From NCBI GenBank assembly GCA_037576215.1, contig JBANDB010000004.1, positions 6,820,001 through 6,884,000 on the forward strand: a stretch of 64,000 nucleotides of DNA, read 5' to 3'. Numbering within the stretch: the stretch's first letter is position 1; the number at the start of each line of letters is the position of its first letter. A program made the position numbers and the translations under genes. Of the stretch, positions 2,414 to 64,000 are shown piece after piece. The DNA comes from Armillaria gallica. Its lineage: Eukaryota; Basidiomycota; Agaricomycetes; Agaricales; Physalacriaceae. The notes below the pieces were generated by a model. The model did no database searches and was not told the origin of the DNA. It saw nothing but the letters and a program-made list of their open reading frames with translations.

Positions 2414-3992
2414 TGATGAGCCTAGACTTCCATGGCAACGGCAACACCCAAAACTCTGAGAGAGCTTAGGCAATTAATGTAGCAACACAGGAATCAAGGT
2501 GTCATGTGTGCAAGTGGTTTGGTGCACCTCCATGTGGTCAATTCCTCAATAACACAAGATACACTGCAACTTTTCAGTCAGCGAAGTAGTACTCTTGGTC
2601 AATGAGTACTAATAGACATTGGCTGTAAGCTGGGAGAGATCTCGATAAACGAGATCGGAAGGAATCTGGTACAATGTGAATACCAAGAAACCATAAAAAC
2701 GGTTAAGAAAACATGGGGATGGGTTAAAGAGCACAAAAATAGCTCTAGAAACTGTAGCAATGTGCTAGAAATCGCAGCAATGCTCTAAAAATTATGGGGA
2801 TGGATTAGAAAACATGTCCAGATGGTGTACTGTAATACTGATTCAAAACAATGGAAATAAACATGCAGAAACTGCCTTGAAACTGGAAGAAAATGTAGCA
2901 ACTGTGGTGCTGAGTGGGGTGTTGCAGTAATAGATGCACAGCAACTCTGAACAATGATGATGATGAGGGTGATCCTATGGAGAATGATGCTGAAATAGGC
3001 CTACATGGAGGTAATACTGAACTGGGCGATGAAAATGATAGTGATGTAGAAGATGAAGATGATAAAACAATCCTATGTGGTGAAGGTGAAGCAATGTTGC
3101 AGCATTAAAGACAAAAGCAAGTTACTGATGTGAGATTCCATGTATTGGTGCGATATACAAAGTGAACCAACAACGTTAAAAGTAAAGCAAGCAGTGAGGG
3201 ATAACTTGGAGTAAACCATAGCTGACAGGAAATGCCATAGTCTTGTCAATTGGGTAAGAACTAGAACTAAAAATGCAGCTTCTAACTAGTTTTTATACTA
3301 CAAGTCCAGTTTTTATAAATAGAATATTCATTGGAGCCTTAGTAAGGCTGTAAGTCCTTGGCTTTGTAATAGCCGTAGTAAACATATGGAATCTGTGGTT
3401 CTAAAGTAACAGCAACTCTTTGACATTGCCATGTATAGATGATAAACATGTGGTTTAATTGAGCGATGAGCAGATCATGAGATGCTGTTTGGCTGCAGAT
3501 TATTGAGCTGCAGTTGCTGTGCTGAGGTGTACACTTGTGGCAATGGTAATTCGAGGTCTGGGCACTGTAACAGCCTTAGTAAACGTGGTCTGTAGTTGCC
3601 ATGGCTGTAATTATCATAGCTGGAAGGATATTCATGTCAATCATGTCATTTCATTAAATGATTGATGGGTGCATCAACTAGGTGCTTCTGAGTGATGCAG
3701 CAACTCTATATTGGGATGATTGTTGATCAATGATGCCTTGCTGTGGTAAGGTATGGTAATTATGATGCACAGCAAGCTGGGAAGAATAATGTAGCATTGA
3801 AGGAGTATGAAGGGCACAGTTTTAGGATTGTATCTGTGTGTGGGTGGCATATACTGCGAAAATCCATGGTATTATCAAGTGTTGGCAGTATTATGGGGTA
3901 TGTGGGGATTATAATGGTGTCATTTCGAAGATATTGGGTGATGCATGGGTAAATCTGTGAATTCTGAGTGTACAGAGCCTGGAGGCTTATTA
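2414..3992 (+). mobile_element. Fam-X repeat copy X0 inserted in the hAT gene
   Basis: It starts TGATGAGCCTAGACTTCC and ends CCTGGAGGCTTATTA, a decayed form of the family end GGAGGCTCATCA. It is about 1.58 kb long with no credible coding sequence. Flanking 4-mers are CTTA (2410-2413) and CTGA (3993-3996). Removing the repeat plus one copy restores the transposase frame exactly (codons GAG ACT GAT ACT), so CTGA is the likely original target. A TATAAATA-type box near 3316 is shared with other Fam-X copies. By its opening (CCCAAAACTC after the terminus) it belongs to the same subfamily as the copy at 43123. The element class is unknown; a solo LTR is the simplest reading. Confidence 0.75.
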
Positions 3993-4219
3993 CTGATACT
4001 CTGCAGCAAAATCAGCTAGGTGCCAATTCCATGGAAGCACTACAGATGTTGAAATATTCAATAAGAAAAAGGTGGGGTTTGAATTTTACAGAGGGAACAG
4101 ATGAAATGTCAGAGATTCATGAGCTGGAGTTACTAATTGAGCAACAGACATCAATTCCAGAGAACATGCAGGCATTTATTAAAGGTCTTGTTTTAGAAAA
4201 TAGCAATAATGCATTTTAA
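3993..4219 (+). pseudogene. hAT transposase relic, C-terminal end
   Basis: After the Fam-X insertion the transposase frame continues with a block reading MEALQMLKYSIRK and LNFT, which matches the extreme C-terminus of fungal hAT transposases. It runs about 75 codons to a stop at 4217-4219. It joins the upstream fragment without loss of sequence, so the repeat entered when this part of the gene was still collinear. No hAT terminal inverted repeat was recognised downstream. Confidence 0.7.
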
Positions 4220-4379
4220 TATATCAATTGCCTTATTTATACATTAGTCTGAACTCAAGCCAGCTAAAGCCAAAGTCTAGCCTGAGCTCAGGTAATAATT
4301 GTGGCTAGAGCTGACTTGGCCAAGATGAATTACTTAAGTTGGAATAAGTGCAGCTAAGCTGAGTTTAGCTGAGTTGCAG

Positions 4380-4906: not shown

Positions 4907-4910
4907 TATC

Positions 4911-10298: not shown

Positions 10299-10379
10299 CT
10301 TTTTTATTTTTATGAAAGAACTTCATATCTCCACTTTCCCACCATATTGCCCTGCCCCAAAACTTGGATATAGGTCGAC

Positions 10380-11809: not shown

Positions 11810-12284
11810 TGATGAGCCTCTAGGCTCTGTACGCTCAGAATTCGTGGATTTTCCCTGCTAATTAATGTTTCTGTCCCTTCAACAGCCTTTCAGTAAACCA
11901 ATAATTCCACACACAGCAATACCACCTTCACCCTATGGCAATCACTCCTTACATGCTTGGCTATCAATCCCATCTTGTTACACATCATAATTACCATATT
12001 TCATCATGGCAAGGCACCATTGATCGACCATCATCTTAATATGGAATCGTCACATCACTCCGAAGCAACTAGTTGATGCGCACATTGATCACTTAATGAA
12101 ATAATGTGATTGATGCAAGTACCCTCCCAGCTATGGAAATTGCAGCTACAGCAACTACAGACCGAGTTTGCTAAGGCTGTTACAATGCCAAGGCCTCGAG
12201 AAAACGTAGCCCTGCGCATACTCCTCAGCATGACAACTATTGCCCAGAAATCCACAGCTAAACAGCACTTAGTGATCTGCTCAT

Positions 12285-12588
12285 TGTTGTAAAATAGAGG
12301 GTAATAGAGGTAATGAACACAGTGGTAAACTGTGAGACTTGTCCATGTGAGAGAGAATAAGATGAAGAGGATGTAAAACAATTAATTGGTGGGCTGGTCT
12401 GCCTGGTATATATACTACAAGGTATGTACTTCTAGAATATACTATTGTCTACTATTGTACATGTCTGACTCATTGCTGAGTGAGCAGACATACGAACAAC
12501 TCAAGGAGAAGAGAAGAGAAGAATCTCACGTGGCTTCAACTCTAGTCCGATTGCTGGATTGCCATATGCGGATGGTGCATCTTCGACA
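12285..12588 (-). repeat. 3' LTR of the copia element
   Basis: On the plus strand it runs from TGTTGTAAAATAGAG to ATCTTCGACA; on the element's own strand it starts TGTCGAAGATG and ends in AACA, so TG...CA. It matches 18496-18799 in length and sequence apart from scattered transitions, many at CpG sites. Confidence 0.9.
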
Positions 12589-12600
12589 CTCCCCCTCAAG
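12589..12600 (-). promoter_or_regulatory. Copia polypurine tract
   Basis: The minus strand reads CTTGAGGGGGAG directly before the LTR start TGTCGAAG. A purine run touching the 3' LTR is the plus-strand priming site of LTR retroelements. It lies just downstream of the RNase H stop. Confidence 0.75.
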
Positions 12601-14200
12601 ATGGCAATAGGCCTAGTTCACAAATGAACTTCTCGTGCTTGGGTCTTGGCAATGCTTTTGTGAAAATATTGGTGACCATTTCGTCTGTGGGGCAGTACAA
12701 CAGTTCAATTACTCCGGACTCGATTTTTTCGCACACAAAATGATTTTGGACATCAAAATGTTTGGATCTTGCATGATACTGTGGATCTCTCGTGATGGCA
12801 ATGGTAGACTGGTTATCTTCGAATACCAGGGTAGGTTCTTCTTGGCTATAACCCAATTCTGCTAAGAAGTTGCGATTCCAGATTGCTTGATGCATTGCAT
12901 GTGCTAACACGGTGTACTCTGCTTCTGTGGATGACAAAGCCACAGTCAACTGCTTCTTGGATGACCATGCGAATGCTCCACCTCCCAGCAAGTATGTGTA
13001 GCTGGAGATCAACTTCCAGTCATCAGGATTTGATGCATAGTCAGCATCTGTATATCCAGCACTGAGGACCTCATGTTCTTCATTTGCTTGGAAGGTGAGT
13101 TTGAGATGGTTGGTTCCAGATAAGTACCTGAACACTTGCTTTACAGCTGACCAGTGTTCAGGTCCAGGATTATTCGAGTACTGGCTCAGTGACTGCATGG
13201 CATATGCAATATCAGAGCGTGTGCAAATCGCAGCATACATCAAGGAACCAATTGCAGATTGATAACCACTGCAGATAGTGGGGTCAACTTCCTTGTCTAT
13301 GCGCTGCTTGCATAGGATTACATTCGGGTCGAGTGGAGTGGTAACAGGTGATGCGTTATGGAGACCAAAACACATAAGTATCCCATCAATATATTGCTGT
13401 TGGGATAGTGAGATCATGCCGTTGTCATGGTCCCTCTCTATTTCGATCCCAATGATCTTCTTTAGCTTTCCCATGTCCTTGATGTCGAACAGTCCTTCTA
13501 ACTCTCTTTTTATTTCATCTAGATCCTTGACCATTTCTGCAAAAATTAATAAATCATCGACCCACACGGTCAGGAACACTGTCCTGCCATCCCGGATGCA
13601 TTTATAGATGCAGTGGTCGACTTTGAGCTTTGAGAATCCAATGGAGGTGAGTTTTCTATCAAATTCGCGGTTCCACTCACGTCCTGACTGTTTTAGCCTG
13701 TACAGAGTCTTGTACAGTCTGCAAACATGGCCTGATCCATCATTGTACCTGGGAGGTTGGCGCATATAAATTTCCTCTTCAAGTTCTCCATTCAGGTAAG
13801 CACCTTTGATGTCCATCTGACCAATTTCAAGGTCTTTGATGGCAGCTATCCCTAGTGCAGCACATATGGATTCAAGGTGAACAACTGGAGCAAATGTCTC
13901 AGTGTAATCGATACTGGGGATCTGTGAGTAGCCTTGTGCTATGAGTCGAGCTTTATAGTGTGATATGTTCCTATGCTCATCGTACTTCTTCACATACATC
14001 CATCTACATCCTACTGTTTTGTGTCCCTGGGGAAGATCTTCTAGTTGGTATGTCTTCATTTCTGCAATCATTCCCATCTCCTCATCCATGGCCTTCTTCC
14101 ATTCAGGCCATTCAGGCAATGCTTGTGCCTCGGCAAGGCTACATGGGAAGTCATCTCGATCCATGTGTTCACCATTGCCGGCAAGATAACTTTGGATCAC
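12596..14200 (-). CDS. Copia reverse transcriptase-RNase H (open 534-codon frame)
   Basis: One uninterrupted frame of about 534 codons covers the copia RVT_2 and RNase H domains. Visible motifs are the WKKAMDEEM entry block, QMDIKGAYLNGEL (first catalytic Asp), the WVDD catalytic box at plus positions 13553-13564, YTDADYA starting the RNase H domain, SSTEAEY, and EDNQSTI plus SKHFDV near the end. All key acidic residues seem present, so this part could be enzymatically competent. The frame is, however, disconnected from gag-integrase by stops and shifts upstream, so it can only be a fragment of the polyprotein. The stop lies next to the polypurine tract. Confidence 0.85.
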   Translation of the reverse strand: MIQSYLAGNGEHMDRDDFPCSLAEAQALPEWPEWKKAMDEEMGMIAEMKTYQLEDLPQGHKTVGCRWMYVKKYDEHRNISHYKARLIAQGYSQIPSIDYTETFAPVVHLESICAALGIAAIKDLEIGQMDIKGAYLNGELEEEIYMRQPPRYNDGSGHVCRLYKTLYRLKQSGREWNREFDRKLTSIGFSKLKVDHCIYKCIRDGRTVFLTVWVDDLLIFAEMVKDLDEIKRELEGLFDIKDMGKLKKIIGIEIERDHDNGMISLSQQQYIDGILMCFGLHNASPVTTPLDPNVILCKQRIDKEVDPTICSGYQSAIGSLMYAAICTRSDIAYAMQSLSQYSNNPGPEHWSAVKQVFRYLSGTNHLKLTFQANEEHEVLSAGYTDADYASNPDDWKLISSYTYLLGGGAFAWSSKKQLTVALSSTEAEYTVLAHAMHQAIWNRNFLAELGYSQEEPTLVFEDNQSTIAITRDPQYHARSKHFDVQNHFVCEKIESGVIELLYCPTDEMVTNIFTKALPRPKHEKFICELGLLPS

Positions 14201-14266
14201 AGCAATGTTGGCTGATTCTGGGGTATGCTCAGATGGTACTGATGGAGTTCGTGATGGTGCTGCTTT

Positions 14267-15212
14267 TCAAGCATTGGGGTTATTGAGCTTACGGTAGTCA
14301 TGATCACCAGTGATACATGAGGTGCATCGTAGTGCTTCTGGTGCTGACTCCGGAGTTTTTTCGGTTTCGAGCTGTGGTGGTGCAGTTTGCTGATCTTCTT
14401 CTTCAGCTCCCTTGGGCAATGGCAGATTGACCGTCTTCACTACCTCCCCCTCAAGCCGCATATTGTCTGTGGTTTACTCCACAACTTTGGGCTTGACAAA
14501 CTCATAGTTCTGGGACTCCCGGATTTTTCGCAATTCAGGATCATAGTATTTGATGACAACTGGGTCCTCAGTGAATCCCATGAAGGTATATTTCTTTGCC
14601 TTGCTTGAGTTTCCACCGAGTTTTGACAAGCTCTGTCTCTCCCGTTTGATCCAGATGTCACATCCAAACTCCCAGAGGTGGGAAACATCAGGCTTCTTTC
14701 CTGTCCACGCTTCCTCCAGTGTTTTACCATCAAGGGCTCTTGTTGGCACGCGATTTCTGATGTACACCACGTACTTTATGGCTGTTTCTCACAGGAATGA
14801 AGGTAGGCCTTTGGCAATCATCATAGCACGTGTGAGCTCAATGAGTGTGCCATTGAAGTGTTAGCTACACCATTGGATGAGTGTGCATATGGTGCTGGTG
14901 TGAGTAGTCAGATCCCTTTCTTCTTCAGCCATTGTTTGACCTCCCTGCTAGTGAGCTCCTTTGCATTGTCAACATGCAGTGTCTTTGGTGTGAAGCCATA
15001 CTGAGTTTCGATGAAGGTGACATATTCTTTGATCTTCTGGAACGCTTCTGACTTCAATTTCATGAATTTGGGTGTACATCGCTGGGTCACATCATCCGTG
15101 AGTGTGAAGTTGTATTTAAACTTCTGCAGGGACTCAACTCAGGCTGGTCCCCAGATGTCACCATGTGTGGTTTCTCCTGGGTTCTCGCTTTGATGTTTTG
15201 TTTCTTGTGGGA
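14267..15212 (-). pseudogene. Copia integrase, C-terminal half and linker (broken)
   Basis: The minus strand reads the integrase core with THGDIWGPA, the LHVDNAKEL block (second catalytic Asp) and, after a frame change near 14780-14900, the ALDGKTLEEAWTGKKPDVSHL block that follows the core in copia integrases. A Pro/Glu-rich linker leads to the RT. In-frame stops include TGA after WGPA and TGA near 14267; both sit where CGA (Arg) would be one transition away. The Fam-X repeat at 15217 separates this part from the zinc-binding end. Confidence 0.75.
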
Positions 15213-15216
15213 ACGG

Positions 15217-16904
15217 TGATGGGCCTAAGACTTCCATGGCAATGGCAACACCAACTCAGAATGAGATTGGGTAATTAACGTAGGAGCACAGCAATCAAGG
15301 TGATCATGTGTGTGAGTGGTTTGGGGCACCTCCATGCAGTAGAACAATTCCTCTATACACAAGAATACACTGTGACTTTAAGTCTGCGAAGTAGTACTGC
15401 TTGGTAGTCAAGTACTAGATGCTAAGGCTATAAGCCGGTAGGGTTCTCTCGAAGTGAGAGGGAATGAAAATGGGTATGATGTGAATACCACGAATCCATA
15501 TGATAAAATGTGCAGCGAGACTAGAAAACGTCGCTGGAAGGTGACTGGGCAGGGAGAACGATAGAAGGTAGACTAAACGGTCAGCAATAGTCTATGGGTG
15601 AGCGAGGCAATGAGAAAACAGTGTGGGGACTGCAAGTGGCGAAATAAACGTGGAACGAGGTGCTGAGGGTAGACTGACAAGAGAAAATGTGGAACCATGA
15701 GAACTAGTGGTGATACTGGTCCTATACCATGCAAGGGTGCTGAGTCGATGTCGAAACTGGTCTGGTACTGAAACGATCCTATCCTATGTCAAAACTAATC
15801 TTCAAGTCCACTTGAGGGACTGATACTATACAAAAACTTGCTGAACTGATCCTAAGTCTGCTCTGAGACTATCCAAGTGGGCGATGATAACGATGGCAAA
15901 AGAGAAATGGTAAAAACTCCAATGGTGTGAAAGTGAAATGATGACGGCCTATAAAAGATAACGTGGGCAAGGTATGGCACGGCAATCACGTATTGGCACA
16001 GTATGAGCATGCACCAATAGTGTTAAGAGCAAAGAGCACGTAGTGAAGGACTCTTCACAGTTAAAAACTGTGGGATAACTCTGGTGAGCTCAAGAGTCAA
16101 CGTGCAATCGAGAATATGCTGGGGTAAATGGTGTATTGCCATAGAATGGTGAATAGACATGGTTTACTGGCGATAGACTAGTGCATGACGATAATTGACG
16201 TAATCTGGGGTCAACTAGAGATGAACTGCCTTGAACTATGTTTTCTAACTACTTTTTATACTACAAGTACAAATTTATAAATAGAGTAAATATGCAAGAC
16301 TTAGTAAGGCTGTAAGGCCTTGGCTTTGTAAAAATCGGAGGAAACATATGGTACTTTGTCTTCTAAAGTAACAGCAACTCATTGACATTGCCGCATATGG
16401 ATGCAAACCATATGGGGTCATTGAGTGATGCACGGATCATTAGGTGCTGTTTAGCTGCAGATTACTTGAGTGATAGTCATCTTACTGAGGAGTACATATG
16501 GGGCAACGTTTTCTTGAAGCCTTGGTGAAGTAACAGCCTTAGTAAATACGGTCTGTAGTTGCCGTAGCTGCAATTGCCATAGCTGGGAGGGTACTTGCAT
16601 CAATCACGTCATTTTCATTAAGTGATCAATGAGCACATCAACTGGGTGCTTCAGAGTGATGCATCAATTCCATATTGGGATGATTGTTGATCAAAGGTGC
16701 CTTGCCATGATGAAATACAGTAATTATGATGCATGGCAAGATGGGATGGATAACAAAGCACGTAATGAGTGGTTGCCATAGGATGAAAGTGGTATCAGTG
16801 TGTGTGCAATCATTGGTTTGCTGAAAGTCCATTGAAGGGACAGTAGCATTAATTAGCAGGGAAAATCCACAAATTCTGAGTGTACAGAGCCTGGAGGCTC
16901 ATCA
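15217..16904 (+). mobile_element. Fam-X repeat copy in copia integrase
   Basis: 1688 bp, starting TGATGGGCCTAAGACTTCC and ending GGAGGCTCATCA. It has a perfect 4-bp duplication, ACGG at 15213-15216 and 16905-16908. Excision in thought restores the copia integrase frame between the pre-integrase block (KMTLHP) and the core. Together with the copy at 20215 it fixes the family's ends and duplication length. It is the innermost layer of the stack gypsy A, X1, copia, X. No ORF with recognisable content. Confidence 0.85.
16276..16283 (+). promoter_or_regulatory. Conserved TATA-like box of Fam-X
   Basis: TATAAATA sits about 620 bp before the 3' end of the repeat, after the conserved words CTACAAGTACAAATT and before AGAGTAAATATG. 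The same box in the same context is seen in copies at about 3316, 37250 and 45610 and, inverted, near 18950 and 20830. Conservation among diverged copies suggests a promoter core, as expected if Fam-X is an LTR. No transcript evidence is available here. Confidence 0.45.
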
Positions 16905-18410
16905 ACGGATGGAGGGTCATCTTGGCTTGAATACAAGCTTCACATTGACTGAGCGGAGGTGAGTTGTCATCAACCGTAAATCCTTCCACCAATCCTTCTC
17001 TCTTCAACTTCTCTAATCCAGACTGTCTCAGATGTCCCATGCATTTATGCCAGGTATCCCATGTGTTTGTGCTTTCAATGTCAGCGACGTTGGACTTCTC
17101 AGGTATGGCATCGTGTGCTCAGGCATTCATCAAGTACAAGTGATGTGTCTTCTTTCCTTCTGCCAAGATCTTCCCATCCTTGTGGTGAAATTGGGCTATG
17201 CCATTCTTGAATGAAGCCTCCATACCAGTGTCATTGAGTCTACTGATGGATATGAGGTTATTCACAGCATTTGGTGCATAGAGGGTATCTTTAAGTTGAT
17301 GAGTGACTGTCTTCCCATTGACTTTGCAGTCTAACAGGACTGTCCCTCGACCTAGTGCAGGAACTGACACATTTCCAATGCCTGCAATGGTTGTGGCCTC
17401 AAGTGGTTTGAAGTCGACGAAGGTTTCTCGGTGATTGGAGATATGCGAGGTCATTCCAGAGTCGGATAGCCAGCTGTAGGCAGAGAAATGTGAGTCAAAT
17501 TGGGGTTTAGACTCTACATGGTAGGCTGCTTCAATGACATCATCCTTCACATTTCCTGATTCTTTTGCCTGATTAGACCTTTCACGCTTCTTCTTTCCTT
17601 GCTTCCTGCCTGGGCCTTTCCCTTCTTGACTGCCACCCTTGGACCAACACTGTGCTGATGTGTGGCCTCGCTTGTGGCAGTTCCAGCACTCCACATCATT
17701 GGAGACCTTCCCCGATGTGGAGTTCCCTCGACTGCTCCCACTGCCTATCCTTCCGTTATTGCGCCCATACATGGCAGCTTCACTCCCACCCAATTTCTCG
17801 ATTTGTCAATGCTTCTCTTCAAGTATGATGGCGATAAACTTGTGCGATGTGACTGTTGGGTTATTTCCAGTGGATCCGAGGTACGCAGATGTGAATTGAT
17901 CCCAGGATTCGGGTAATGATGAGATTAGCAGCATCAAGAAGTCCTTGTCAGTAATGACACTTCCTAGCATGCCAAGCTCTTCCTGGATCCATCGCATCTC
18001 AGTGGTGTGCTCAACGATGTCAGTGGATTCGTCAGCTACAGTACGGTAAAGATGGCAGCAGTGCGATAGTATTCCCAGTTTTCCTCTAGCTTCCTTTACT
18101 AATTTAAGCTGTGTCCACATTTTGGCCGACGTTTTTGCCCCTGCGATGTGTATCATCTGTGAGTCACTCAATGTGAGCTCAATTTGGGTCTGCGCTCGTC
18201 CATCTCTCTTTTCTCACTTCATAATTTTCTCCAATTCTTCAGCTGTTGGTGCTTTTGCATCTGCTGAATTGGTTTCTTCAATGACCCATCAGCATACTTC
18301 AACAGGGCTCGTTCTCGCAGGATCACAGTGATGCAATGCTTCCACAGAACCAAGTTATGCTCCTGGAGTAGCTCGATGCAGAATAAAGACAAAGGTGTGG
18401 AGTTGGACAT
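16905..18410 (-). pseudogene. Copia gag-protease-integrase N-terminal part (broken)
   Basis: The minus strand begins at about 18410 with MSNSTPLSLF. A UBN2-like gag follows (LPESWDQFTSAYL near 17880), then a CCHC knuckle CWNCHKRGHTSAQCW (about 17660-17700) and a copia protease site WLSDSGMTSHIS (about 17435-17475), where Ala after DSG is usual and Met is present. The pre-integrase zinc domain ends in MGHLRQSGLEKL...CEACIQAKMTLHP. Stops include TGA at about 17810 (after LEEKH) and about 17116 (after LMNA), both consistent with former CGA codons, and one frame change lies near 18200. In a live copia element this is the N-terminal half of one polyprotein. Confidence 0.75.
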
Positions 18411-18475
18411 GATATATGGGGATGGATTGTAATTTGGCGAGGTGATTGATTACGGTGAGTCTTCTGTAGTTTAGT

Positions 18476-18495
18476 TAGGGCCGGGGCCCATAACC
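18476..18495 (-). promoter_or_regulatory. Candidate copia primer-binding site (initiator-tRNA half type)
   Basis: Directly inside the 5' LTR the minus strand reads AGGTTATGGGCCCCGG. This resembles the site of Drosophila copia, which pairs with an internal stretch of initiator tRNA-Met around the anticodon (GGGCUCAUAACCC) rather than with a tRNA 3' end. Pairing was judged by eye and includes at least one mismatch. Confidence 0.55.
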
Positions 18496-18799
18496 TGTTG
18501 TAAAATAGAGTGTAATAGAGGTAATGAATACAGTGGTAAACTGTGAGACTTGTCTGTGTGAGAGAGAATAAGATGAAAAGGATGTAAAACAATTAATTGG
18601 TGGGCTGGTCTGCCCGGTATATATACTACAAGGTATGTACTTCTAGAATATACTATTGTCTACTATTGTATATGTCTGACTCATTGCTGAGTGAGCAGAT
18701 GTATGAACAACTCGAGGAGAAGAGATGAGAAGAATCTCGCGTGGCTTCAACTCTAGTCTGATTGCCGGATTGCCATATGCAGATGGCACATCTTCGACA
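18496..18799 (-). repeat. 5' LTR of the copia element
   Basis: 304 bp, partner of 12285-12588. On the plus strand it starts TGTTGTAAAATAGAGTG and ends ATCTTCGACA. It borders the primer-binding site at its lower-coordinate side and the CTTAT target copy at 18800-18804. Confidence 0.9.
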
Positions 18800-20005
18800 C
18801 TTATCACTCAATAAGACCATATGGTTTCCATCCAAACATGGCAATGTTGATGAGTTGCTGTTACTTTCGAAGACAAAGGACCATACATTCCCTACGATTT
18901 TACTAAGCTACTGCTATAAAGTCTTACTAAGTCGCTCATATTTACACTATTTATAAATTCGTACTTGTAGTATAAAAACTAGCTAGAAAAACGTAGCTAG
19001 TCAGTTATCACCAGTTGATCACAGTCTATCTCAGTTCACCACAAGTCTACATCAATTATCGCCAGTAAACTACGTTTATTCACCATTCTACAACAATACA
19101 CTGTTTACCCCAGCATATTCTCAATTGCACATCAACTCTTAAACTCACCAGAGTTATTCCACACTTGGTCTTTGCTCTTAACACTATTGGTACATGCTCA
19201 TATTGTGCCAATATGTGATCGCTGTGCCATACCTCACCCATGTTATCTTTTATTAGGCCATCATTGTTTCACTTTCACACCATTGGAGTTTTCATCATTT
19301 CACTTTCACCACCATTATTGTCACCCATTTGGGTAGTCTCCGAGTAGACTTAGGATCAGTATCAGCAAGTTTTTGTATCACATCAGTATAGGACAGTCCC
19401 TTGAGTGGACTTGAAGGTTAGTTTTGACATAGGATAGATCACTTCAGTACAAGACCAGTTTCAACATCGACTTCAGCACCATCACACCATATAGGACCAG
19501 TATCTTCGACCAGTTTTTGTAGCCCCATGTTTTCTCTTGCCATTCCACCTTCAGTACCTCTTTCTATGTTATCTCTCATCTCATGCGACTTCAGTACCGC
19601 ATTTTCTCATTGACTCTTTCACTTCTAGGCCAATTGACATCGGTTTAGCCCATTTCCCATCGTTCACCCTGTTTAGATTACCATCTAGTGATGTTTTCTA
19701 GTTTCACAGCACATTTTCTTGTACAGATTCATGGTATTAACATCATACCTGTTTCCATCCCCTCTCCCTTCGAGAGATCCATACCGGCTTATAGCCAAAG
19801 CATCTAGTACTCAACTACCAAGCAGTACTACTTCGCAGACTTAAAGTTGCAGTGTATACTTGCATATAGATGAATTGATTTACTGCATGGAGGTCCCTTG
19901 AACCACTCGCACACATGATCACCTTGATTGCCATGCTACTATGTTAACTCGTCCAATCTCATTCTGAGTTGGTGTTGCCGTTGCCACGGAAGTCTAGGCT
20001 CATCA

Positions 20006-20214: not shown

Positions 20215-21887
20215 TGATGAGCCTCCAGGCTCTGTATGCTCAGAATTTGTGGATGTTCTCTGCTAATTAATGTTGCCATCCCTTCAATGGCCTTTCAGTA
20301 AACCAATAATTCCACACATGGCAATACCACTTTTACCCTATGGCAACCACTCTTCATGTGCTTTGTTATCCATCCCATCTTGCTATGCATCATAATTGCT
20401 GTATCTCATCACAGCAAGGCACCTTTGATTGACAATCATCCTAATATGGAATCGTCGCATCACTCAGAAGCAACTAGTTGACATGCCCATTGATCACTTA
20501 ATGAAATGATATGAATGACACAAGTACCCTCCCAGCTATGATAATTGCAGCTACAGCAACTACAGACCATGTTTACTAAGGCTGTTACAATGCCAAGGCC
20601 TTGAGAAAACATAGTCCCATGTGTACTCCTCAGCACAACGACTATTGCTAAGAGATCCGCAGTTAAACAGCACTTAGTGATCTGCTCGTTGCTCAATAAA
20701 ACCACATGGTTTCCATCCGAACACAGCAACATCGAAGAGTTGCTGTTACTTTCGAAGATAAAGGACCATACATTCCCTATGATTTTACTAAGCTAAGGCC
20801 TTACAGCCTTACTAAGTCACTCATACTTACAATATTTATAAATTTGTACTTGTAGTATAAAAGCTAGCTAGAAAAATGTAACTAGCCAGTTTATCTCAGT
20901 TCACCATGAGTTCATCACTGGTTGATCAGTCTACATCAATTATCACCAGTAAACTATGTTTATTCACCATTCTACAGCAATACACCGTTTACCCCAGCAT
21001 ATTCTCAATTGCACGTCAACTCTTAAACTCACCAGAGTTATTCCACACTCACTCTTTGCTCTTAAAACTATTGGTACATGCTCATATTGTGCCAATACAT
21101 GATCACCACACTATACCTCACCCACATCATCTTTTACTAGGCCATCATCATTTCACTTTCACACCATTGGAGTTTTTACCATTTCACTTTCACCACTGTT
21201 ATCGTTGCCCACTTGGGTAGTCTCTGAGTAGACTTAGGATCAGTATCAGCAAGTTTTCATATTGCATCAGTATAGGACAGTCCCTCAAGTGGACTTGAAG
21301 ATTAGTTTTGACATAGGATAGATTGTTTCAGTACAAGACCAGTTTCAACATCAACTCAGGACCATCACATCACATAGGACCAGTATCATCACCAGTTTTT
21401 GTAGTTCCACATTTTCTCTCACCATTCCACCTTCAGTACCTCTTTCTATGTTATCTCTTGCCTCACTTGACTTCAGCATCACATTTTCTCATCAACTCTC
21501 TCACTTCTAGATCAATTGCCATCAGTTTAGTCCATCCTCCACTGTTTGTCCTACTTAGATTACCATCTAGCAACATTTTCTAGTTTCACAACACATTTTC
21601 TCATACAGATTCATGGTATTAACATCATACCTGTTTCCATCCCCTTTCTCTTCGAGAGATCCCCACCAGCTTATAGCCAAAACATCTAGTACTCAACTAC
21701 CAAGCAGTACTACTTTGCAGACTTAAAGTCGGAGTGTATACTTGCATATAGATGAATTGATTTACTGCATGGAGGTGCCTCAAACCACTCACACACACGA
21801 TCACCTTGATTGCCATGCTACTATGTTAACTCACCCAATCTCATTCTGAGTTGGTGTTGCCATTGCCACAGAAGTCTAGGCTCATCA
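20215..21887 (-). mobile_element. Fam-X repeat copy X2 in gypsy A gag
   Basis: 1673 bp; on the plus strand it starts TGATGAGCCTCCAGGCTCTG and ends GAAGTCTAGGCTCATCA. A perfect 4-bp duplication, GTGG, lies at 20211-20214 and 21888-21891. It is nearly collinear with X1, only 209 bp away and in the same orientation, so it may be an independent hit or part of a local rearrangement; the intact duplication favours an independent insertion. Confidence 0.85.
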
Positions 21888-21891
21888 GTGG

Positions 21892-25257: not shown

Positions 25258-25261
25258 ATGG

Positions 25262-32092: not shown

Positions 32093-32127
32093 TTACCCCC
32101 TCGTTAAGGCAGGCGTCCCGACTGCTG

Positions 32128-34095: not shown

Positions 34096-34114
34096 AGCCT
34101 TGGCTGCTAGATTT

Positions 34115-36520: not shown

Positions 36521-36564
36521 CTGTAGGCTTTGGTTAAGGAGCAAGGGGTAAGCTTCGAGCTAAT

Positions 36565-42797: not shown

Positions 42798-43122
42798 TGA
42801 TGAGCCTAGACTTCCATGGCAATGGCAATACCAACTCAGAATGAGATTGGGTAATTTAACATAGTAGCATGGCTATCAAGGTGATTGTGTGTGCGAGTGG
42901 TTTGAGGCACCTCCATGCAGTAAATCAATTCATCTATATGCAAGTATACACTCCGACTTTAAGTCTGCAAAGTAGTACTGCTTGGTAGTTGAGTACTAGA
43001 TGCTTTGGCTATAAGCCAGTAGGGATCTCTTGAAGGGAGAGGGGACGGAAACAGGTATGATGTTAATACCATGAATCTGTATGAGAAAATGTGCTGTGAA
43101 ACTAGAAAATGTTGCTAGACTG

Positions 43123-44891
43123 TGATGAGCCTTGACTTCCGTGGCAATGGCAACACCCAAAACTCAGTGAGAGCTTAGGCAATTAACATAGCAACACAGC
43201 AATCAAGGCAATGTGTTTGCGAGTGGTTCGGTGCACCTCCGTGCGGTCAATTCCTCAATAACACAAGATACACTGCGACTTTCAGTCAGCAAAGTAGTAC
43301 TCTTGGTCAAGGAGTACTAATAGATGTTGGCTGTAAGCCGGGAAGGATCTCGATAAACGAGATGGGATGGAATCTGGTATGACTTGAATACCAAGAAACC
43401 GCAATAGAAACTGCGAAAATGGTCTAGAGATCACAAAACTGGATCTAGAAATCGTAGCAATGGTCCAGAAATTGTGGGGATGGACTGGAAAACATAGAGA
43501 GGTGCTGGAAAATGTTGTGATGCTCTAGTAATCGTGGGGGAGGATGAGTAATCGTGTGGAAGGACTGGTAATCATAGCAATAAGCTAGAAATCATAGCAA
43601 CATGCTAGAAATCGTAGCAACGGTCAAGAAAACATGGGGAGGGACTGGAAAACGTGGAGAGGGACTAGAAAACGTTGCGATGCTCTAGTAATCGTGGCAA
43701 TAGACTAGAAGACATTGAAATAGCCTAGTAAACATGGCTTGGGGTGTACCTAATATTGTGAGTCAAAACAATAGCAATAAACGTACAGAGACTGCAAGAA
43801 ACTGGTAGAAATCGTAGCAACTGAGGTGCTGAGTGGGGTGCTGTGGCAATAGATGCACAGCAACTCCGAACAATGATAAAGATGAGGGTGATCCTATGGA
43901 GCTGAACTGGGCCTACACGGAGGCAATACTGAACTGGGCGATGAAAATGATGGCGATGTAGAAGGTGAAGGCAATGAAACAATCCTATGTGGTGAAAGTG
44001 AAGTGATGTTGCAGCATTAAAAGACAAAAGCAAGTTATTGATGCAAGATTTGGTGTATTGGTGCAACCAACAACGTTTAAAGAGTAAAGCAAGCAGTGGG
44101 GAATAACTTGGAGTAACCATAGCTGACTGGTAATGCCGTAGCCTCGTCAACTGGGTAAGAACTAGCTCTAAAAATGCGGTTTCTACCTAGTTTTTATACT
44201 ACAAGTACAATTTTATAAATAGAATATTCTTCGGAGCCTTAGTAAGGCTGTAAGTCCTTGGCTTTTGTAATAGCCATAGTAAACATATGGTATCTGTGGT
44301 TCTAAAGTAACAGCAAGTCCTCGATGTTGCTGTGTATGGATGCGAACCATGTGGTTTTATTGAGCGATGAGCAGATCATAAGGTGCTGTGTAGCAGCGGA
44401 TTATTGAGCTGCAGTTGCCATGCTGAGGTGTATGCATGGGACAATGATAATTCGAAGTCTTGGCACTGTAACAGCCTTAGTAAATGCGGTCTATAGTTGC
44501 CGTAGCTGTAATTATCATAGCTGGGAGGGTACTTGCATCAATCACATCATTTCATTAAATGATTGATGGGCACATCAACCAGATGCTTCTGAGTGATGTA
44601 GCAACCCTGTTTTAGAATGATTGTCGATCAAAGGTGCCTTGCCGTGATGAGATACGGTAATTGTGATGCGAGGCGAGCTGGGAAGGATAATGGGGTGTGT
44701 GAGGAGTGGATGTCATGGTGTTAGGACTGGATCTGAATGTTTGTGGCTTATACTGTGAAAATCCACGGTATTATCGAGTGTTGGCAGTGTTATGGAGTGT
44801 GTGAGGGTTATAATGGCGTCGTTTTGAAGGTATTGGGTGATAAATGGATAAATCTGCGAATTCTGAGCGTACAGAGCCTGGAGGCTCATCA
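43123..44891 (+). mobile_element. Fam-X repeat copy inside X6 (subfamily of X0)
   Basis: 1769 bp, starting TGATGAGCCTTGACTTCC and ending GGAGGCTCATCA. Flanking 4-mers ACTG (43119-43122) and ACGG (44892-44895) differ by one base. Its opening (CCCAAAACTCAG) groups it with X0. Region 43385-43740 is a degenerate tandem array (see the separate entry). No coding sequence. Confidence 0.82.
43385..43740 (+). repeat. Degenerate tandem array inside Fam-X
   Basis: About a dozen units of roughly 25-35 bp are built around AGAAATCGTAGCAATGGTC, GGGATGGACTGGAAAACAT and GATGCTCTAGTAATCGTGG. X0 has a shorter version at about 2690-2850. Copy-number differences between copies explain part of the length variation of the family. 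Confidence 0.6.
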
Positions 44892-45900
44892 ACGGTAATC
44901 TAAGCAGGGCAAACAGTGGAGGATGGACTAAACTGATGGCAATCGGTCTAGAAGTGAAAGAGTTGATGAGAAAATGCAATGCTGAAGTCAAGTGAGGCAA
45001 GAGATAACATAGAAAGAGGTACTGAAGGTGGAATGGTGAGAGAAAATGTGGAACTACAAAAACTGGTGATGATACTGGTCCTATGTGATGTGATGGTCCT
45101 GAGTTGATGTTGAAACTGGTCTTGTACTGAAACGATCTATCCTATGTCAAAACTAACCTTCAAGTCCACTTGAGGGACTATCCTATACTGATGCAATATG
45201 AAAACTTGCTGATACTGATCCTAAGTCTACTCAGAGACTACCCAAGTGGGCAATGATAATGGTGGTGAAAGTGAAATGGTAAAAACTCCAATGGTGTGAA
45301 AATGAAACAATGATGGCCTAGTAAAAGATAACGTGGGCAAGGTATGGTGTGGTGATCATGTATTGGCACAATATGAGTGTGTACCAATAGTGTTAAGAGC
45401 AAAGAGCAAGTGTGGAATAACTCTGGTGAGTTTAAGAGTTGACATGCAATCAAGAATATGCTGAGGTAAACAGTGAATAAACATAGTTTACTGGTGATAA
45501 TTGATGTAGACTGGTCAACTGGCGATGAACTCATGGTGAACAGACATAAACTGTGATCTACTCCTAGCTACATTTTTCTAGCTAGCTTTTATACTACAAG
45601 TACAAATTTATAAATAGTGTAAGTATGAGCGACTTAGTAAGACTGTAAGACCTTAGCTTAGTAAAATCGTAGGGAATGTATGGTCCTTTGTCTTCGAAAG
45701 TAACAGCAACTCTTTTACATTGCCATGTTCAGATGGAAACTGTATGGTTTTATTCAGTGACAAGCAGGTCACTAAGTGCTGTTTAGCTGTGGATTTCTGG
45801 GCAATAGTCATCATGCTGAGGAGTATGTGTGAGGCTATGTTTTCTCAAGGCCTTGGCATTGTAAGAGCCTTAGTAAACATGGTCTGTAGTTGCTGTAGCT

Positions 45901-46525: not shown

Positions 46526-46540
46526 TGTATTATAGAAATT

Positions 46541-49584: not shown

Positions 49585-50437
49585 TGACATGCTCTGCAAG
49601 TGTTTATGTGTGTAATTTTGCAATTTGTACAAGTCAATACAGGCTACAATGTCCAGATACTAAGGCATGGAGAACTACAACAGAGTGCGATAATTATAAT
49701 GCCAGTAATAAGATTACCTGAGTAAAGCTGGGTGAAGTGCATGACTTAACCTAAGAATGGTACTAGAAAGGCTCCACTAGGTATAAAGTCACAGTGCATA
49801 GCACAAGTGTGCTAAGAATAGAGCAGGACACACTTGTGAGATAATTAAGACTTTACACAACATTGATCTATGACACGCAAGGCCCAGCAGATCTGGAACT
49901 TGGAGCTCTAGACTTTGTGATGTTAGAACTCAAGTAAATCCGAAGTTTCTGACTTTGGTGGAAGCATGCAAGGCCTAGACAAGGAGCTTGTCGCCTTCAC
50001 TATGATAGAATTCCCTAAGAGAATATTATGAAGTGAAATAAGAGTCGCACGCTAGGCTGCAACTCCAAGAAGATAGCCACCGGTGTCAGTACAGGTGTAA
50101 TAGCACTGTTAACCGACATTGCAACACTCAGAGACAGGATCTGACCCTGAGCCAGACTCCTGAGTCAGTGCCAAGCAATGGCATGCTAATGGCAACATGT
50201 GCAGGACCCAGGCAAGGGAGCTCAGCAACCTAAATGATACTATATTTGGTGATACTAATTTGTAGAATGTAAAGTAGGTAAATAGTGCAGTGTAATTGGA
50301 GTGTACAAGTTTTGGACCCCCATTGTAGTTGTGCACAAGCCTCCAGCTTGATGCCCTAGCTTCAGAATTAGTTTGTAACTTTGAGAAAGAGAATATACCT
50401 TGGATTGATAGCATATCGAGTGAATTGAGTTGCATGC

Positions 50438-52046
50438 TAAAGAGATTCTGTGTGCACAAGCTAGAAATGCAATAGCGTCGATGACACTGATCACACCCAC
50501 ACCCAATACTACACACACAAACCCTCAAGTTTGTGGGGGATTCTGATGCGATAGAAGCAGATAGAAACATGAGAACCAAACTCTCAAAATATAAGGTACA
50601 CAAGTACAGCAGTAGCACGCGTCAAGTATCTAGATCTCTTTAAGTCCAAAGGCTTTTAATAACAAGAGGAGCAACAGTTGTTGCTGGGCCTCAAGGCAAG
50701 GTGTAGTACAATACATGCAACATTGAGAGACGTACACAAAACCCTCACAAAGTCTAGAGCAACATACAGAATGACCTCAAATGACTTAAAACACACAACA
50801 CATGACTCAAAGCTTCACACTCCAAGCAGAAATACTTCACAAAACCTTCCACTTAAGCCACAGGATCCAAACCTACATACTCAAGCTTCCAAACTGATTG
50901 TAGATCCACAGGGTTCTAACCTATGTGATCCAGAGACACAAAAACCTTATAAAACACCATCCACAAGCCACAGGGTTTGAACCTATGCCACTTGGGAAAT
51001 ATATACCCTCAAGCGAGCACTAATCAAGCCAAAGGGTTTGAACCTCTGCCACCTATAGTGCCTTGTGTCACAAGAAACCCTCAAAGCACAAGAGCACATC
51101 CTCTATGACACTATACTCTTCTTCTCAGGTTAGAGCACAAGTCACCCAACCAATTAACAGTCACATAAGTGCCACATTAGCTTTATATGCCCTATGCACA
51201 ACTCAATTCACTTGATATGATATCAATTCTAGGTATATTCTCTCGCTCAAAGTTACAAACTGATCCTGAAGCTAGGGCATCAAGCTGGAGGCTTGTGCAT
51301 GACTATAATGGGGGTCCAAAACTTGTACACTATGGTTACACTGCACTATTTATCTAGTTTATGTTCTACAAACTAGTACCACCAAATATAGTATCATTTA
51401 GGTTGCTGAGCTCCCTTGCCTGGGTTCTGCACATGTTGCCATTAGCATGCCATTGCTTGGCACTGACTCAGGAGTCTGGCTCAGGGCCAGATCCTGTCTC
51501 TGAGTGTTGCAACGTTGGTTAACCACGCTATTACATGTGTACTGACATCCATTGCTATCTCCTTGGAGTTGCAGCCTAGCATGTGACTCTTATTTCACTT
51601 CCTAATATTCTCTTAGGGAAATCTACTGTAGTGAAGGTGACAAGCTCTGTGTCTAGGCCTCGCATGCTTCTGCCAAAGTCAGAAACTTCGGATTTACTTG
51701 AGTTCTGACATCACAAAGTCTAGAGCTCCAAGTTCCAGATCTGCTGGGCCTTGTGCATTATAGATCAATGTTGTGCGAAGTCTTAATTATCTCACAAGTG
51801 TGTCCTGCTCTATTCTTAGCACACTTGTGCTATGCACTGTGACTTTATATCTAGTGGAGCCTTTCTAGTACCGTTCTTAGGTTAAGTCATGCACTCCACC
51901 CAGCTTTACTCAGGTAATCTTGTTACTGGCATTATAATCACTGTGCTCTGTTGTATTTCTCCATGCCTTAGTATCTGGACATTGTAGCATGTATTCATTG
52001 GTAGCAATTGCAAAATTACATATGTAAATTCTTGCAGAGCATGTCA
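50438..52046 (+). mobile_element. Fam-Y repeat copy (inner), opposite orientation
   Basis: 1609 bp, from TAAAGAGATTCTGTG (family start TGAAGAGACTCTGTG) to AGAGCATGTCA. It splits the outer copy in its middle and in opposite orientation, so 49585-52806 forms two pairs of inverted arms of about 0.8 kb. Flanking 4-mers are ATGC (50434-50437) and GTGT (52047-52050); the uninterrupted site in the copy at 63068 reads GCGC at this place, from which both can arise by CpG transitions. Confidence 0.75.
50858..51048 (-). repeat. Array of four tRNA T-arm-like hairpins in inner Fam-Y
   Basis: Loops at 50864-50870, 50913-50919, 50975-50981 and 51036-51042. The best unit on the minus strand is AGAGGTTCAAACCCTTTGG: a B-box (GGTTCAAACCC) with a 5-bp T-stem. 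Spacing is 49, 62 and 61 bp. The first two units have decayed loops. Confidence 0.65.
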
Positions 52047-52194
52047 GTGTGAGGCATAGAAAGCTAACACAGCACTTGTGCTACTGTTAATTGGTCGGCT
52101 GACTTGCACTCTAACCTGAGAAGAAGAGTTTGGTGTCATTGAGGATGTGCTCTTGTGCTTTGAGGGTTTCTTGTAACATGAGGCACTACAGGTG

Positions 52195-52385
52195 GCAGAG
52201 GTTCAAACCCCTTGGCTTGATTAGTGCTCGCTTGAGGGTATATATTTCCCAAGTGGCATAGGTGCAAACCCTGTGGCTTGCAGATGGTGTTTTATAAGGC
52301 TTGTGTGTCTCTGGATCACATAGGTTAGAACCCTGTGGATCTACAATCAGTTTGGAAGCTTGAGCACATAGGTTTGGATCCTGTG
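52195..52385 (+). repeat. Array of four T-arm-like hairpins in outer Fam-Y
   Basis: Units on the plus strand begin GCAGAGGTTCAAACCCC (loop 52202-52208), ATAGGTGCAAACCCTGTGG (52263-52269), ATAGGTTAGAACCCTGTGG (52325-52331) and ATAGGTTTGGATCCTGTGG (52374-52380). Same order and spacing as in the inner copy, in mirrored orientation. Confidence 0.65.
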
Positions 52386-52810
52386 GCTTTAGTGGAGGGT
52401 TTTGTGAAGTATTTCTGCTTGGAGTGTGAAGCTTTGAGTCATGTGTTGTGTGTTTTAAGTCATTTGAGGTCATTCTGTGTGTTGCTCTAGACTTTGTGAG
52501 GGTTTTGTGTATGTCTCTCAATGTTGCGTGTATTGTACTACACCTTGCCTTGAGGCCCAGCAACAACTGTTGCTCCTCTTGTTATTAAAAGCCTTTGGAC
52601 TTAAAGAGATCTAGATACTTGATGTGCACTATCACTGTACTTGTGTATCTTCTATTTTGAGAGTTTGGTTCTCATGTTTCTATCTGCTTCTATCACATCA
52701 GAATCCCCCACAAACTTGAGGGTTTATGTGTGTAGTGTTGGGTGTGGGTGTGATCAGTGTCTTTGGCACTGTTGCATTTCTAGCTTGCATGCACAGAGTC
52801 TCTTCAGCAG

Positions 52811-58157: not shown

Positions 58158-58192
58158 TTACCCCCTCATTAAGGCAGGCATCCTGACTGCCA

Positions 58193-61567: not shown

Positions 61568-63067
61568 CTTCCTGGTCTGCCAGTTGATTAGCGGATTGTG
61601 CCTTACTAACCAATCATGCCCAAGAAAGACATCACGGTCTTTTAGATCGGTGATAGCTAGGTCGATACATTTAGCATGATCTCCAATAGTGATACGTAAG
61701 TTCGCAAAGGTGGTGATCTGTCCCGAACTATTTTTTGATCTGTCCGCATTATAAACGGTGATGGGCGCTGCTGTCGCCTGGGTGGGAATATTGTGTTTTT
61801 CAATAAAGGCTCAGTTGATGGCACTGCTAGTACAGCTGCTGTCAACTAAAGCCGAGGAAGCAATGTGAGTGTGACTCCCTGGTACCCCAACTTGGATGTT
61901 GGTGGTTAGGGCCTTATCTCCCCTGCTCAATCGGCAAATGTACTGTCTGGGTTGCCAGAGTTCATCCATCCATTCCAACACATTGATGTACATGGCTCCC
62001 TGCAAGCCTTCAATCATCTCATCAACTACTTCCTTGACCTGTGTTTTATGGATCCAGTTTTTTAAGATGGCTTTTGCCTCTGACTCGGTCTTCGCCTCCT
62101 TGATTCCGCGTAGCATCCACTCGGCTTCAAATGGTTTGAGCCATCGATGTGGGACCTTCTCAGTCCTTGTGCCAGAGCCTGATGGCTCAGTTACCATTGA
62201 CTGGGTCTCCTCAGGAGCTAGTGGAGGCTTCTGGCTAGCTTTCTGGTTTAGTCAGAAGCTGGTATCGTCCTCATCATCGGGAATTTCTTTGATCTGCACT
62301 GGATGCCCCCTTTTTACCACCTGGGCGCTAGTGGCTTCCTGTCCGGCAGCTGTCTTGGTCGGGGCTGTTGTGCATCCAACAGTTTTTGCCTCATGAGTTT
62401 TGTTGGGATCGCCTGGGGGGGTGTCTCACCAGACTCTTTTAGGAGAACCAGATTGCAGCAAGTTCATCTGGACCTTGGGGCCATCTCGAGAGACAGCAGA
62501 CTCAACTTGTGCTGAATGAATGGTCTTACCAGCCCGGTCTGCTCCCTTGGGGCTTAGTGAATTGTTCCACCCCCGCTCTTGTTTCCTGGGGCCTGCACCA
62601 ACCTGGCGCCAACCATTGTCTTGCTGTTGGCTAGCACTCCTGGAACTCTTGCTCTGCTGCTGGTCATCAGACCGCACAATTGGTTCGCTGCACATGGTTT
62701 TGATGATCATGGGTGCACTAGTGAGCCCAATCCTCGCGGTTTCCTCCAGTCACAGAGCCACTTTATCAGGGGGGGCATGTCTCTCCAGTGGGGGCACTTG
62801 TTCCCCTGCCCCATCCAGTCGCTCGGCTGGCACTGTTTTGATGGGTGACACTATGGTGGGTGCCTTTTTGTTTGCTGCTTTTGCTCTTAACGAGTTACTT
62901 GCCAAACGTTTAGCTGGTTGCGCAGTCTTGGGGTCAGCGGCCCCATCTGCCTGTTTTGATTCTTCCTTAGTTTCCATCTCGGTAGTGAAGTCACAGTGTG
63001 GTATATTTGAATGTGTTATATCAACTACAGAAGTACAATAAGCCTGACTAGCAGGCAATGAGCGCAT
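61568..63067 (-). pseudogene. Gypsy D protease and C-terminal gag region
   Basis: Protease active site reads ALVDSSCTSSAI with DSS (61835-61843) instead of DSG, a single G-to-A change, then DRDVFLGHDWLVRHNPLINW. Upstream is a helical block (HRWLKPFEAEWMLRGIKEAK) and a long Gln/Ser/Pro-rich linker (62198-63000). A TGA after SSAIN and one near 62255 interrupt the frame. The gag core and knuckle must lie beyond the Fam-Y insertion. Confidence 0.75.
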
Positions 63068-64000
63068 TGAAGAGACTCTGTGCGTGCAGGCTAGAAATGC
63101 AACAGCGTCGAAGACACTGATCACACCCACACCCAACACTACACACACAAACCCTCAAAGTTCTTGAGGGGATATTATGCGATAGAAGCAGATTGAAGCA
63201 ATACAACTAAACTCTCAGAATATATGATACACATGTATAGCAATAGCGCTCGTAGGGTATCTAGATCTCTCTAAGTCCAAAGGCTTTTATAACAAGAGGG
63301 GCGACAGATGTTGCCGGGCCTCAAGGCAAGGTGTACTACAATACACAACTCGTTGCCACACACCAACAAAACCCTCAATAAGCCTTGCGCGACACACACA
63401 GGTGACCACAAGCAACTTAAACACACCCTAAACACGACTCAAAGCTTGTGCTCTAAGCAGAAACCCTTCACAAAACATGTCCACTCAAGCCACAGGATTT
63501 GAACCCACGCACTCAAGCTTCCAAACCGATCGTAGACCCACAGGGTTTGAACCTGTGCCGATCCAGAGAAACAATAACCAAATAAACCCTCTCTGACAAG
63601 CCAAAGGGTTTGAACCTCTGCCACTTGCGGAATGGTATACCCAACTAAGCGTGTGCTAACCAGACCAAAGGGTTTGAACCTCTGCCACCTGTAGCACCGC
63701 GTGTCACAAGAAACCCTCAAAACTCAAGAGTGCGTCCGCAATGACACAATATCTCTTATTCTCAGGGTGGAGCGCAGTCAACCAATCACTCAAACCGTAC
63801 ACAAGTCCCACGCTAGCTTTCTATGCCTCGCGCGCTACTCAAGTCACTCAAATGTTATCAATAAATGGTCTATTCTCTCGCTCGAAGCTACAAACTAATC
63901 CCGAAGCTAGAGCGCTAAGCTGAGGGCTTTCGCGCTCCAACAAGGGGGGTCCGAAACTTGTACACTATTACTATACTATGGTATTTATACTATGTGCTCT
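63068..64000 (+). mobile_element. Fam-Y repeat copy in gypsy D, runs off the window
   Basis: It starts TGAAGAGACTCTGTGCGTG after GCAT (63064-63067). This is the least decayed Fam-Y copy: many CpG that read TpG or CpA in the copies at 49585-52806 are intact here. About 930 of the expected 1609 bp are inside the window. It carries the clearest T-arm array. Confidence 0.78.
63491..63684 (-). repeat. Array of four T-arm hairpins in Fam-Y (best preserved)
   Basis: Loops at 63497-63503, 63545-63551, 63608-63614 and 63672-63678; spacing 48, 63 and 64 bp. On the minus strand the second unit reads CACAGGTTCAAACCCTGTG: a perfect six-pair stem around TTCAAAC, identical in form to a tRNA T-arm and to a polymerase III B-box. 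The other units are AGAGGTTCAAACCCTTTGG (twice) and GTGGGTTCAAATCCTGTGG. No full tRNA fold was found around them. Confidence 0.72.

Follow-up and report, generated by a model that had tools for sequence, protein, structure and literature searches.

Ginger1 is a DNA transposon with a gypsy-like integrase, inverted repeats of 40-270 bp and 4-bp duplications with a central CG (CCGG in 75% and CCGT/ACGG in 24%), and no gypsy lineage clusters with it with support (PMC2836005, in the portion of that paper available to us). Where a retroviral integrase cuts with a 4-bp stagger, the target is sharply bent and a flexible pyrimidine-purine (YR) step is selected at the centre; foamy virus (PFV) likewise makes 4-bp duplications with YR chosen at the centre (available text of PMC4422553). 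The plant elements Grande, RIRE2 and Retand carry an antisense extra open reading frame (ORF) between pol and the 3' long terminal repeat (LTR), the function of which is given as unknown in the accessible sections of PMC7264820. Here we compare with these systems five families of dispersed repeats (X, Y, K1, K2 and W) from a 64,000-nt stretch of the Armillaria gallica genome (the window: assembly GCA_037576215.1, contig JBANDB010000004.1, C4:6820001-6884000; genome of 86.0 Mb in 28 contigs). With high probability, X, Y and K1 are the LTRs of related large Ty3/gypsy-type retrotransposons whose integration has a 4-bp stagger with CG at its centre, and the same probably holds for K2 and W. As solo LTRs the repeats are ordinary; what is unusual is the near-obligatory CG target and a conserved antisense gene.

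Repeat families and their parent elements

Comparison of the window with itself and genome searches with family queries (for X, the copy at 15217-16904) showed that the repeat starts named in a first-pass annotation, made by a model from the letters of the window, are real, sharp termini of dispersed repeats. First-look candidates numbered 808, 239, 149, 325 and 314 for X, K1, K2, Y and W; 40 per family were scored, the totals are not confirmed copy numbers, and the analysis covers the best matches fetched for each family. For X, 36 of 45 match rows (drawn from 40 of the 808 candidates, window copy included) align over the whole of positions 1-1688. Long series of matches that begin and stop at identical points were likewise obtained for Y, K1, K2 and W, W being the most diverged family (80-84% identity to the query in long matches). 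The LTRs measure ~1.69 kb (X), 1.36 kb (K1), ~1.66 kb (K2), ~1.6 kb (Y) and ~1.7 kb (W), and X has a terminal inverted repeat of ~10 bp. TG...CA ends are found in the bulk of copies of all five families, while some copies have decayed ends, e.g. those at 2414 and 50438.

Several details of the first-pass annotation had to be revised. Positions 11810 and 20215, taken there as starts, are the opposite ends of reverse-oriented X copies (20005-11810 and 21887-20215). Its single K family comprises real repeats, which however belong to two families, K1 (23895-25257) and K2 (28654-30588), with ~14 terminal bases in common, a weak 75-base match and opposite orientation in the window. Position 50438, listed there with the repeats that start with TGA, reads TAA and belongs to a Y copy nested in the reverse Y copy 49585-52806. 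The W repeat is real as well, but its copy at 28094 is split by an X copy (duplication GCAA) and ends in TGACA rather than TCA, with CCAT on both sides. X 15217-16904 contains no ORF of at least 150 aa; a 169-aa ORF (50109-50618) spans the joint of the two nested Y copies.

X, Y and K1 are present genome-wide both as solo copies and as direct pairs enclosing pol, which for these three families bears out the suggestion that the repeats could be solo LTRs of an unrecognised retroelement. Of 30 X loci, three adjoin one constant sequence on their downstream side and three adjoin another on their upstream side; the second sequence is also found at a seventh locus (L037), in reverse. The X pair at C3:2325685-2342719 (17,035 bp, coding on the minus strand) is flanked by ACGA on both sides, and its LTRs of 1690 bp share 99.6% identity in an alignment of 1691 columns; the outer flanks of a second pair (C5:4956270-4974357, 18.1 kb) both read ACGG. 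Two K1 pairs (C13:1480985-1497190, with CCGG on both sides; C15:1107082-1119644, with GTGG on both sides) and a Y pair (C8:3766702-3791818, with ACGT on both sides) enclose pol in the expected orientation. The K1 pol piece is 48% identical to the X pol over 656 columns, and the pol of the Y pair is 60% identical to that of K1. The C13 pair is enlarged by nesting, because it contains a piece 97% identical to 34125-34722 of the window, and the 25-kb Y pair may be enlarged in the same way. A gag-like ORF (Retrotrans_gag, E 2e-5) with a zinc knuckle lies inside the latter (C8:3783000-3785500); it has no match to the ORFs of X and is either the gag of Y itself or part of a nested element.

In coding order, the interior of the C3 element comprises a 497-aa gag-like ORF without a significant Pfam match, a 697-aa ORF2 with weak zinc-knuckle and protease matches in Pfam (the protease below the cut-off) and a 1233-aa open frame (ORF3), in which RNaseH and the H2C2 zinc finger exceed their Pfam cut-offs, while the reverse transcriptase (RT; E 8e-4) and the integrase core (E 0.003) do not reach theirs. 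The X pol matches the Ty3 RT-RNaseH in PDB (E 1e-18 to 1e-19), and a search of the gag, protease and pol pieces against NCBIfam gave nothing above the cut-off beyond the pol domains already found. The order protease, RT, RNaseH, integrase is that of Ty3/gypsy and is shared with the Ty3/gypsy elements of mushrooms, including the H2C2 integrase. An assignment to copia (Ty1) was rejected, as the X integrase follows RNaseH and does not precede RT. An assignment to the chromoviruses was also rejected: Pfam detected no chromodomain at the C-terminus of the X integrase (L039:8708-10000), whereas two other gypsy ORFs in the window do have one.

Primer-binding sites and polypurine tracts lie at the inner LTR edges of X, Y and K1, and the sequence TGGAGCCCACC is common to all three just inside the 5' LTR. 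For W, one adjoining polypurine tract was found, and in 10 copies of K2 neither a primer site nor a polypurine tract was seen. K2 is assigned as an LTR because its terminal bases are the same as those of K1, and W because one copy adjoins a Y-type polypurine tract. A pattern combining a tRNA T-arm with the complement of the primer site matched the genome 13 times (0 for the backward control), 11 matches being the identical 21-mer; a tRNA pattern that required a perfect acceptor stem gave no match, the gene in locus L135 having a G-T pair. Inspected by eye, that locus, one of two stretches fetched, reads as an intron-bearing tRNA whose anticodon is CTT, so that the putative primer, as judged from sequence, is an intron-containing tRNA Lys(CTT). 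The match between the primer site and the 3' end of this tRNA extends to 18 nt in two X elements; in two K1 copies and one Y copy it is at least 16 nt long, reaching the end of the slice, and three more copies, one from each of the families X, K1 and Y, match in 11 nt. The other stretch (L136, C10:304150-304305) has the exact 3' end of the primer tRNA without being a whole tRNA by eye, and is perhaps a fragment or a tRNA-derived repeat.

Target duplications and the copies in the window

Our tabulation comprises 63 insertions for which the outer flanks on both sides are available (X 30, K2 10, Y 9, W 8, K1 6), the C3 and C5 X elements being counted as pairs. An exact 4-bp duplication is present in 33 of them and an exact 5-bp duplication in none; when the 4-mers are taken 1-4 bases out of register, 0-1 of the 63 insertions match. 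The claim of a consistent 4-bp duplication thus holds beyond the window, and the variable or absent duplications that the first-pass annotation had named as counter-evidence did not emerge from the tabulation. The 33 exact duplications are centred on CG (22), CA (7) or TG (4), against a CG share of 1.5% among the dinucleotides of the window and 3.1% among those of the fetched loci; the binomial chance of at least 22 CG centres in 33 at 3.1% is ~1e-25, with insertions taken as independent. CG occurs on at least one side in 40 of 63 insertions. Methylated CpG decays to TG or CA, and 18 of the 30 imperfect pairs differ only by CG versus TG or CA; CTGA/CCAA and ACAT/ATGT are the opposite decay products of CCGA and ACGT. 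Over 12-base sites, none of the other ten positions shows a preference comparable to that of the two central bases. The in-frame stops in 68 long pol matches, counted by hand (116 TGA, 8 TAG, 5 TAA), have an excess of TGA that fits decay of CGA to TGA. From these sequence patterns we infer integration at N-CG-N followed by methylation-type decay of CG to TG/CA, a narrower rule than the 4-bp length described in the first-pass annotation.

The tabulation leaves out L009 (the same copy as 15217 in the window), L025 (its alignment was cut), seven X LTRs that adjoin element interiors (L013, L017, L023, L031, L034, L036, L037), Y L052-L055 (likewise bordering internal sequence) and K2 L122 (end not found). 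Of the window copies, X 2414, X 42798 and W 41220 (both truncated) and Y 63068 (off the window) were omitted. Also omitted were the X copies at C1:2859419, 2866993 and 2882059 (nested or recombined, with outer flanks CCGG/CTGG, one transition) and C11:3094142 (ATGC/ACAC, which would fit as decay), and the W copies at C2:7614569, C3:1384526 and C2:7644489 (end unclear or bordering internal sequence).

The copies in the window are given below; the strand is the coding strand of the parent element, which for W was inferred from the one copy adjoining a polypurine tract.

2414..3992, minus strand: X solo LTR; decayed end AGGCTTATTA; flanks CTTA/CTGA, a mismatch
11810..20005, plus strand: X solo LTR with a copia element inserted in it; flanks AAGT/ACAT, which do not fit
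15217..16904, minus strand: X solo LTR within the copia element; duplication ACGG; query of the genome search
20215..21887, plus strand: X solo LTR; duplication GTGG
23895..25257, plus strand: K1 solo LTR; duplication ATGG
28094..39302, minus strand: W LTR in two pieces (28094-28358, 37860-39302); duplication CCAT
28359..37855, minus strand: X solo LTR in pieces (28359-28650, ~30588-31321, 37203-37855), inside W and in turn interrupted by K2 and a gypsy element; duplication GCAA
28654..30588, minus strand (inferred from the likeness of its ends to K1): K2 solo LTR; flanks ACAT/ATGT
41220..42489, minus strand: W LTR cut short at ~42490 by another LTR
42798..45900, minus strand: X LTR, truncated at 45900; the X copy 43123-44891 is inserted in it
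43123..44891, minus strand: X solo LTR nested in the preceding one; flanks ACTG/ACGG
49585..52806, plus strand: Y solo LTR in two pieces (49585-50432, 52053-52806); duplication GCAG
50438..52046, minus strand: Y solo LTR nested in the preceding one; flanks ATGC/GTGT do not fit
63068..64000, minus strand: Y copy running off the window end

The five perfect duplications given in the first-pass annotation (ACGG, GTGG, GCAA, ATGG and GCAG) are all confirmed. Its contrast with 5-bp duplications of the gypsy and copia elements of the window was checked lightly: read by eye, the copia element has CTCAT/CTTAT with one mismatch, the gypsy copy is without a clear duplication, and a search for exact duplications gave none for either. 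This copia element (12285 to ~18795-18801) forms the middle of three nesting layers, with the X solo LTR 15217-16904 inside it and the X LTR 11810..20005 around it. The K2 copy holds a 267-bp near-perfect palindromic insertion (29576-29842, 83% self-complementary), which has a relative in L002 (2189-2462) and is perhaps a small inverted-repeat element.

Mechanism and alternative explanations

We propose that new copies would arise by reverse transcription primed by the tRNA read as Lys(CTT), that the integrase would join the LTR ends to the target with a 4-bp stagger centred on CG to give N-CG-N duplications, and that LTR-LTR recombination within a copy would remove the interior to leave a solo LTR. 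With age, the duplicated CG would decay to TG or CA via CpG methylation, and CG would have been the original centre also where neither side now carries it. The central preference would be set by the integrase itself, and by analogy the X-type integrase could use the target-bending mechanism of the 4-bp retroviral integrases, narrowed to CG.

The preference could instead be the general YR preference of integrases with a 4-bp stagger, CG not being specially chosen. PFV integrase is the best match of the X integrase among solved structures (PDB, E 8e-8, a remote similarity, with Ty3 next), the two share the 4-bp stagger and the central YR, and all 33 exact sites are YR. PFV, however, prefers YR generally (PMC4422553, available text) and the elements studied here mostly CG. 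With a background of 1.5-3.1%, CG stands at 22 of 33 centres, whereas CA and TG, with 15-17%, together supply 11; TA, with a background of ~6%, is at the centre in none of the 33, and the 40 of 63 insertions with CG on at least one side point the same way. We consider a general YR preference unlikely. Still less probable is that chromatin or sequence context (CG-rich or particular repeats, or a tethering factor) centres the insertions on CG, since the preference is limited to the two central bases, the other ten bases of the sites being without similar strength, and CG is so rare a dinucleotide in the examined sequence. A third rival takes the repeats for DNA transposons of large size that have short terminal inverted repeats and are moved in trans, e.g. 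Ginger-like elements; the first-pass annotation had named large non-autonomous elements as its other option. This reading would agree with the short inverted repeat of X, its lack of a long ORF and the Ginger1-like, CG-containing 4-bp duplications. We regard it as barely credible for the repeats as a whole, and for X, Y and K1 it is already refuted by the pol that stands between paired copies: direct pairs surround RT-RNaseH-integrase, with a primer site and a polypurine tract inside and one duplication outside the whole pair, and the inverted repeats of Ginger1 are far longer (in the available portion of its description).

Several observations weigh against our interpretation of the five families as LTRs of CG-targeting retrotransposons. 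The K1 copies at C15:104368 and 118110 enclose pol, but their outer flanks CCAC/GCGA differ and do not fit as a pair (they are left out of the 63), and no full-length K2 or W element was found. Even allowing for CpG decay, 12 of 63 pairs do not fit (5 X, 1 Y and 6 W), nor does the X copy at 2414, outside the 63. The genome copies were drawn from best-match lists and are not a random sample. Finally, ARAGORN called no tRNA in L135 or L136, the tRNA reading being by eye.

Translation, antisense gene and significance of the X element

ORF2 of X overlaps the gag-like ORF by 59 nt and is in the +1 frame with respect to it; a start of ORF2 at the ATG overlapping the gag stop was rejected, as this ATG belongs to a different frame. 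One in-frame stop, UGA followed by CUAG, separates ORF2 (protease) from ORF3 (RT) in all four copies that cover the site (L040:2607-2609 on the minus strand, L042, L045 and L048; two further loci do not cover it). UGA CUA (G) is a demonstrated weak-termination context in the fungus Ustilago maydis (PMC4207609, available text). The conservation of this context suggests, by analogy with U. maydis, that the X pol is probably made by readthrough.

Between the integrase and the 3' LTR of X there are 6.3 kb, in which a multi-piece antisense region with a Cys-rich part and a hypervariable first half was found (L039:2868-8503, plus strand, ~C3:2327868-2333503). Its open pieces, and the loci of a second family discussed below, are:

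L039: 2868-3947, 4176-4829, 4862-5224, 6770-7222, 7242-7517, 7516-7830 and 7796-8503, opposite to gag-pol: antisense open pieces of X
C5:2863343, C16:1108886, C13:1748958, C11:1114178, C3:125804, C13:1457582 and C3:5455710: second-family loci

The antisense frames from position 6770 of L039 on show a third-position excess of differences between copies. The ratio of non-synonymous to synonymous substitutions (dN/dS) is 0.08-0.37 for the antisense pieces (13 comparisons, three elements), as opposed to 1.22 for the opposite-strand control frame of the last piece, which indicates that the gene is under purifying selection. A database protein (P0124) joins parts of the last two pieces, as splicing would. 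The hypervariable part shows 68-86% identity (gaps left out) over ~2.7 kb in six pairwise comparisons of four copies, whereas in the same copies identity is 81-94% in the flank facing the LTR and 81-98% in the flank facing pol. Positive selection was rejected as the cause, as dN/dS there is 0.08-0.32. Synonymous divergence (dS) is 0.45-1.76 in this segment versus 0.16-0.43 in the other antisense pieces (values above 1 being unreliable on short pieces), and the segment is better explained by older divergence or exchange.

With the Cys-rich piece as query and all 44 first-look candidates scored, eight matches at 38-40% identity were obtained. Seven of these have the integrase portion of a pol match ~1.7 kb away on the opposite strand, so that a second family carries the antisense gene in the same place; its pol is 57-59% identical to that of K1 and its Cys-rich antisense exon is diverged. 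Pfam reported no family above a cut-off, and so none for an envelope, in the antisense and 3' ORF pieces examined. Our guess from sequence is that the product could be a regulatory or nucleic-acid-binding accessory protein.

As a conserved frame antisense to gag-pol between pol and the 3' LTR, this gene belongs to the aORF-3R type. It differs from the genes of Grande, RIRE2 and Retand in being fungal, in several pieces and Cys-rich, with a hypervariable part (likeness of the proteins was checked by Pfam only). By pol, the best relative of X is annotated in Armillaria ostoyae, with 89% identity over 77% of the query, and another in Mycena chlorophos has 62% over 84%; these relatives were compared by pol alone, and the features described here may be common to them. 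The likeness to Ginger1 in target is clear: both have a gypsy-type integrase and 4-bp duplications with a central CG, but the present elements are LTR pairs with RT, and their N-CG-N targets leave the outer bases free, unlike CCGG/CCGT (Ginger1 as described in the available part of PMC2836005). In the accessible text of open-licence literature we found neither a near-obligatory CG target nor a conserved antisense gene reported for fungal elements, and the available parts of papers on Laccaria, Marasmius and Armillaria borealis make no mention of 4-bp or CpG duplications.

We speculate, while considering it rather improbable, that these elements represent a fungal Ty3-related lineage with an integrase that reads CpG, perhaps methylated CpG, a retrotransposon counterpart of Ginger1 and possibly near its source lineage, in which the antisense gene would serve as an accessory factor in competition between elements or against host silencing. 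The antisense gene provides a fungal case for the question of what extra genes do in LTR elements. A near-obligatory CG at the centre of the 4-bp stagger would be a sharper target rule than the retroviral YR preference and is testable in vitro. If the fungus methylates CpG in repeats, this rule would steer new copies into silenced DNA, and the decay of CG to TG/CA would be a built-in clock in each duplication.

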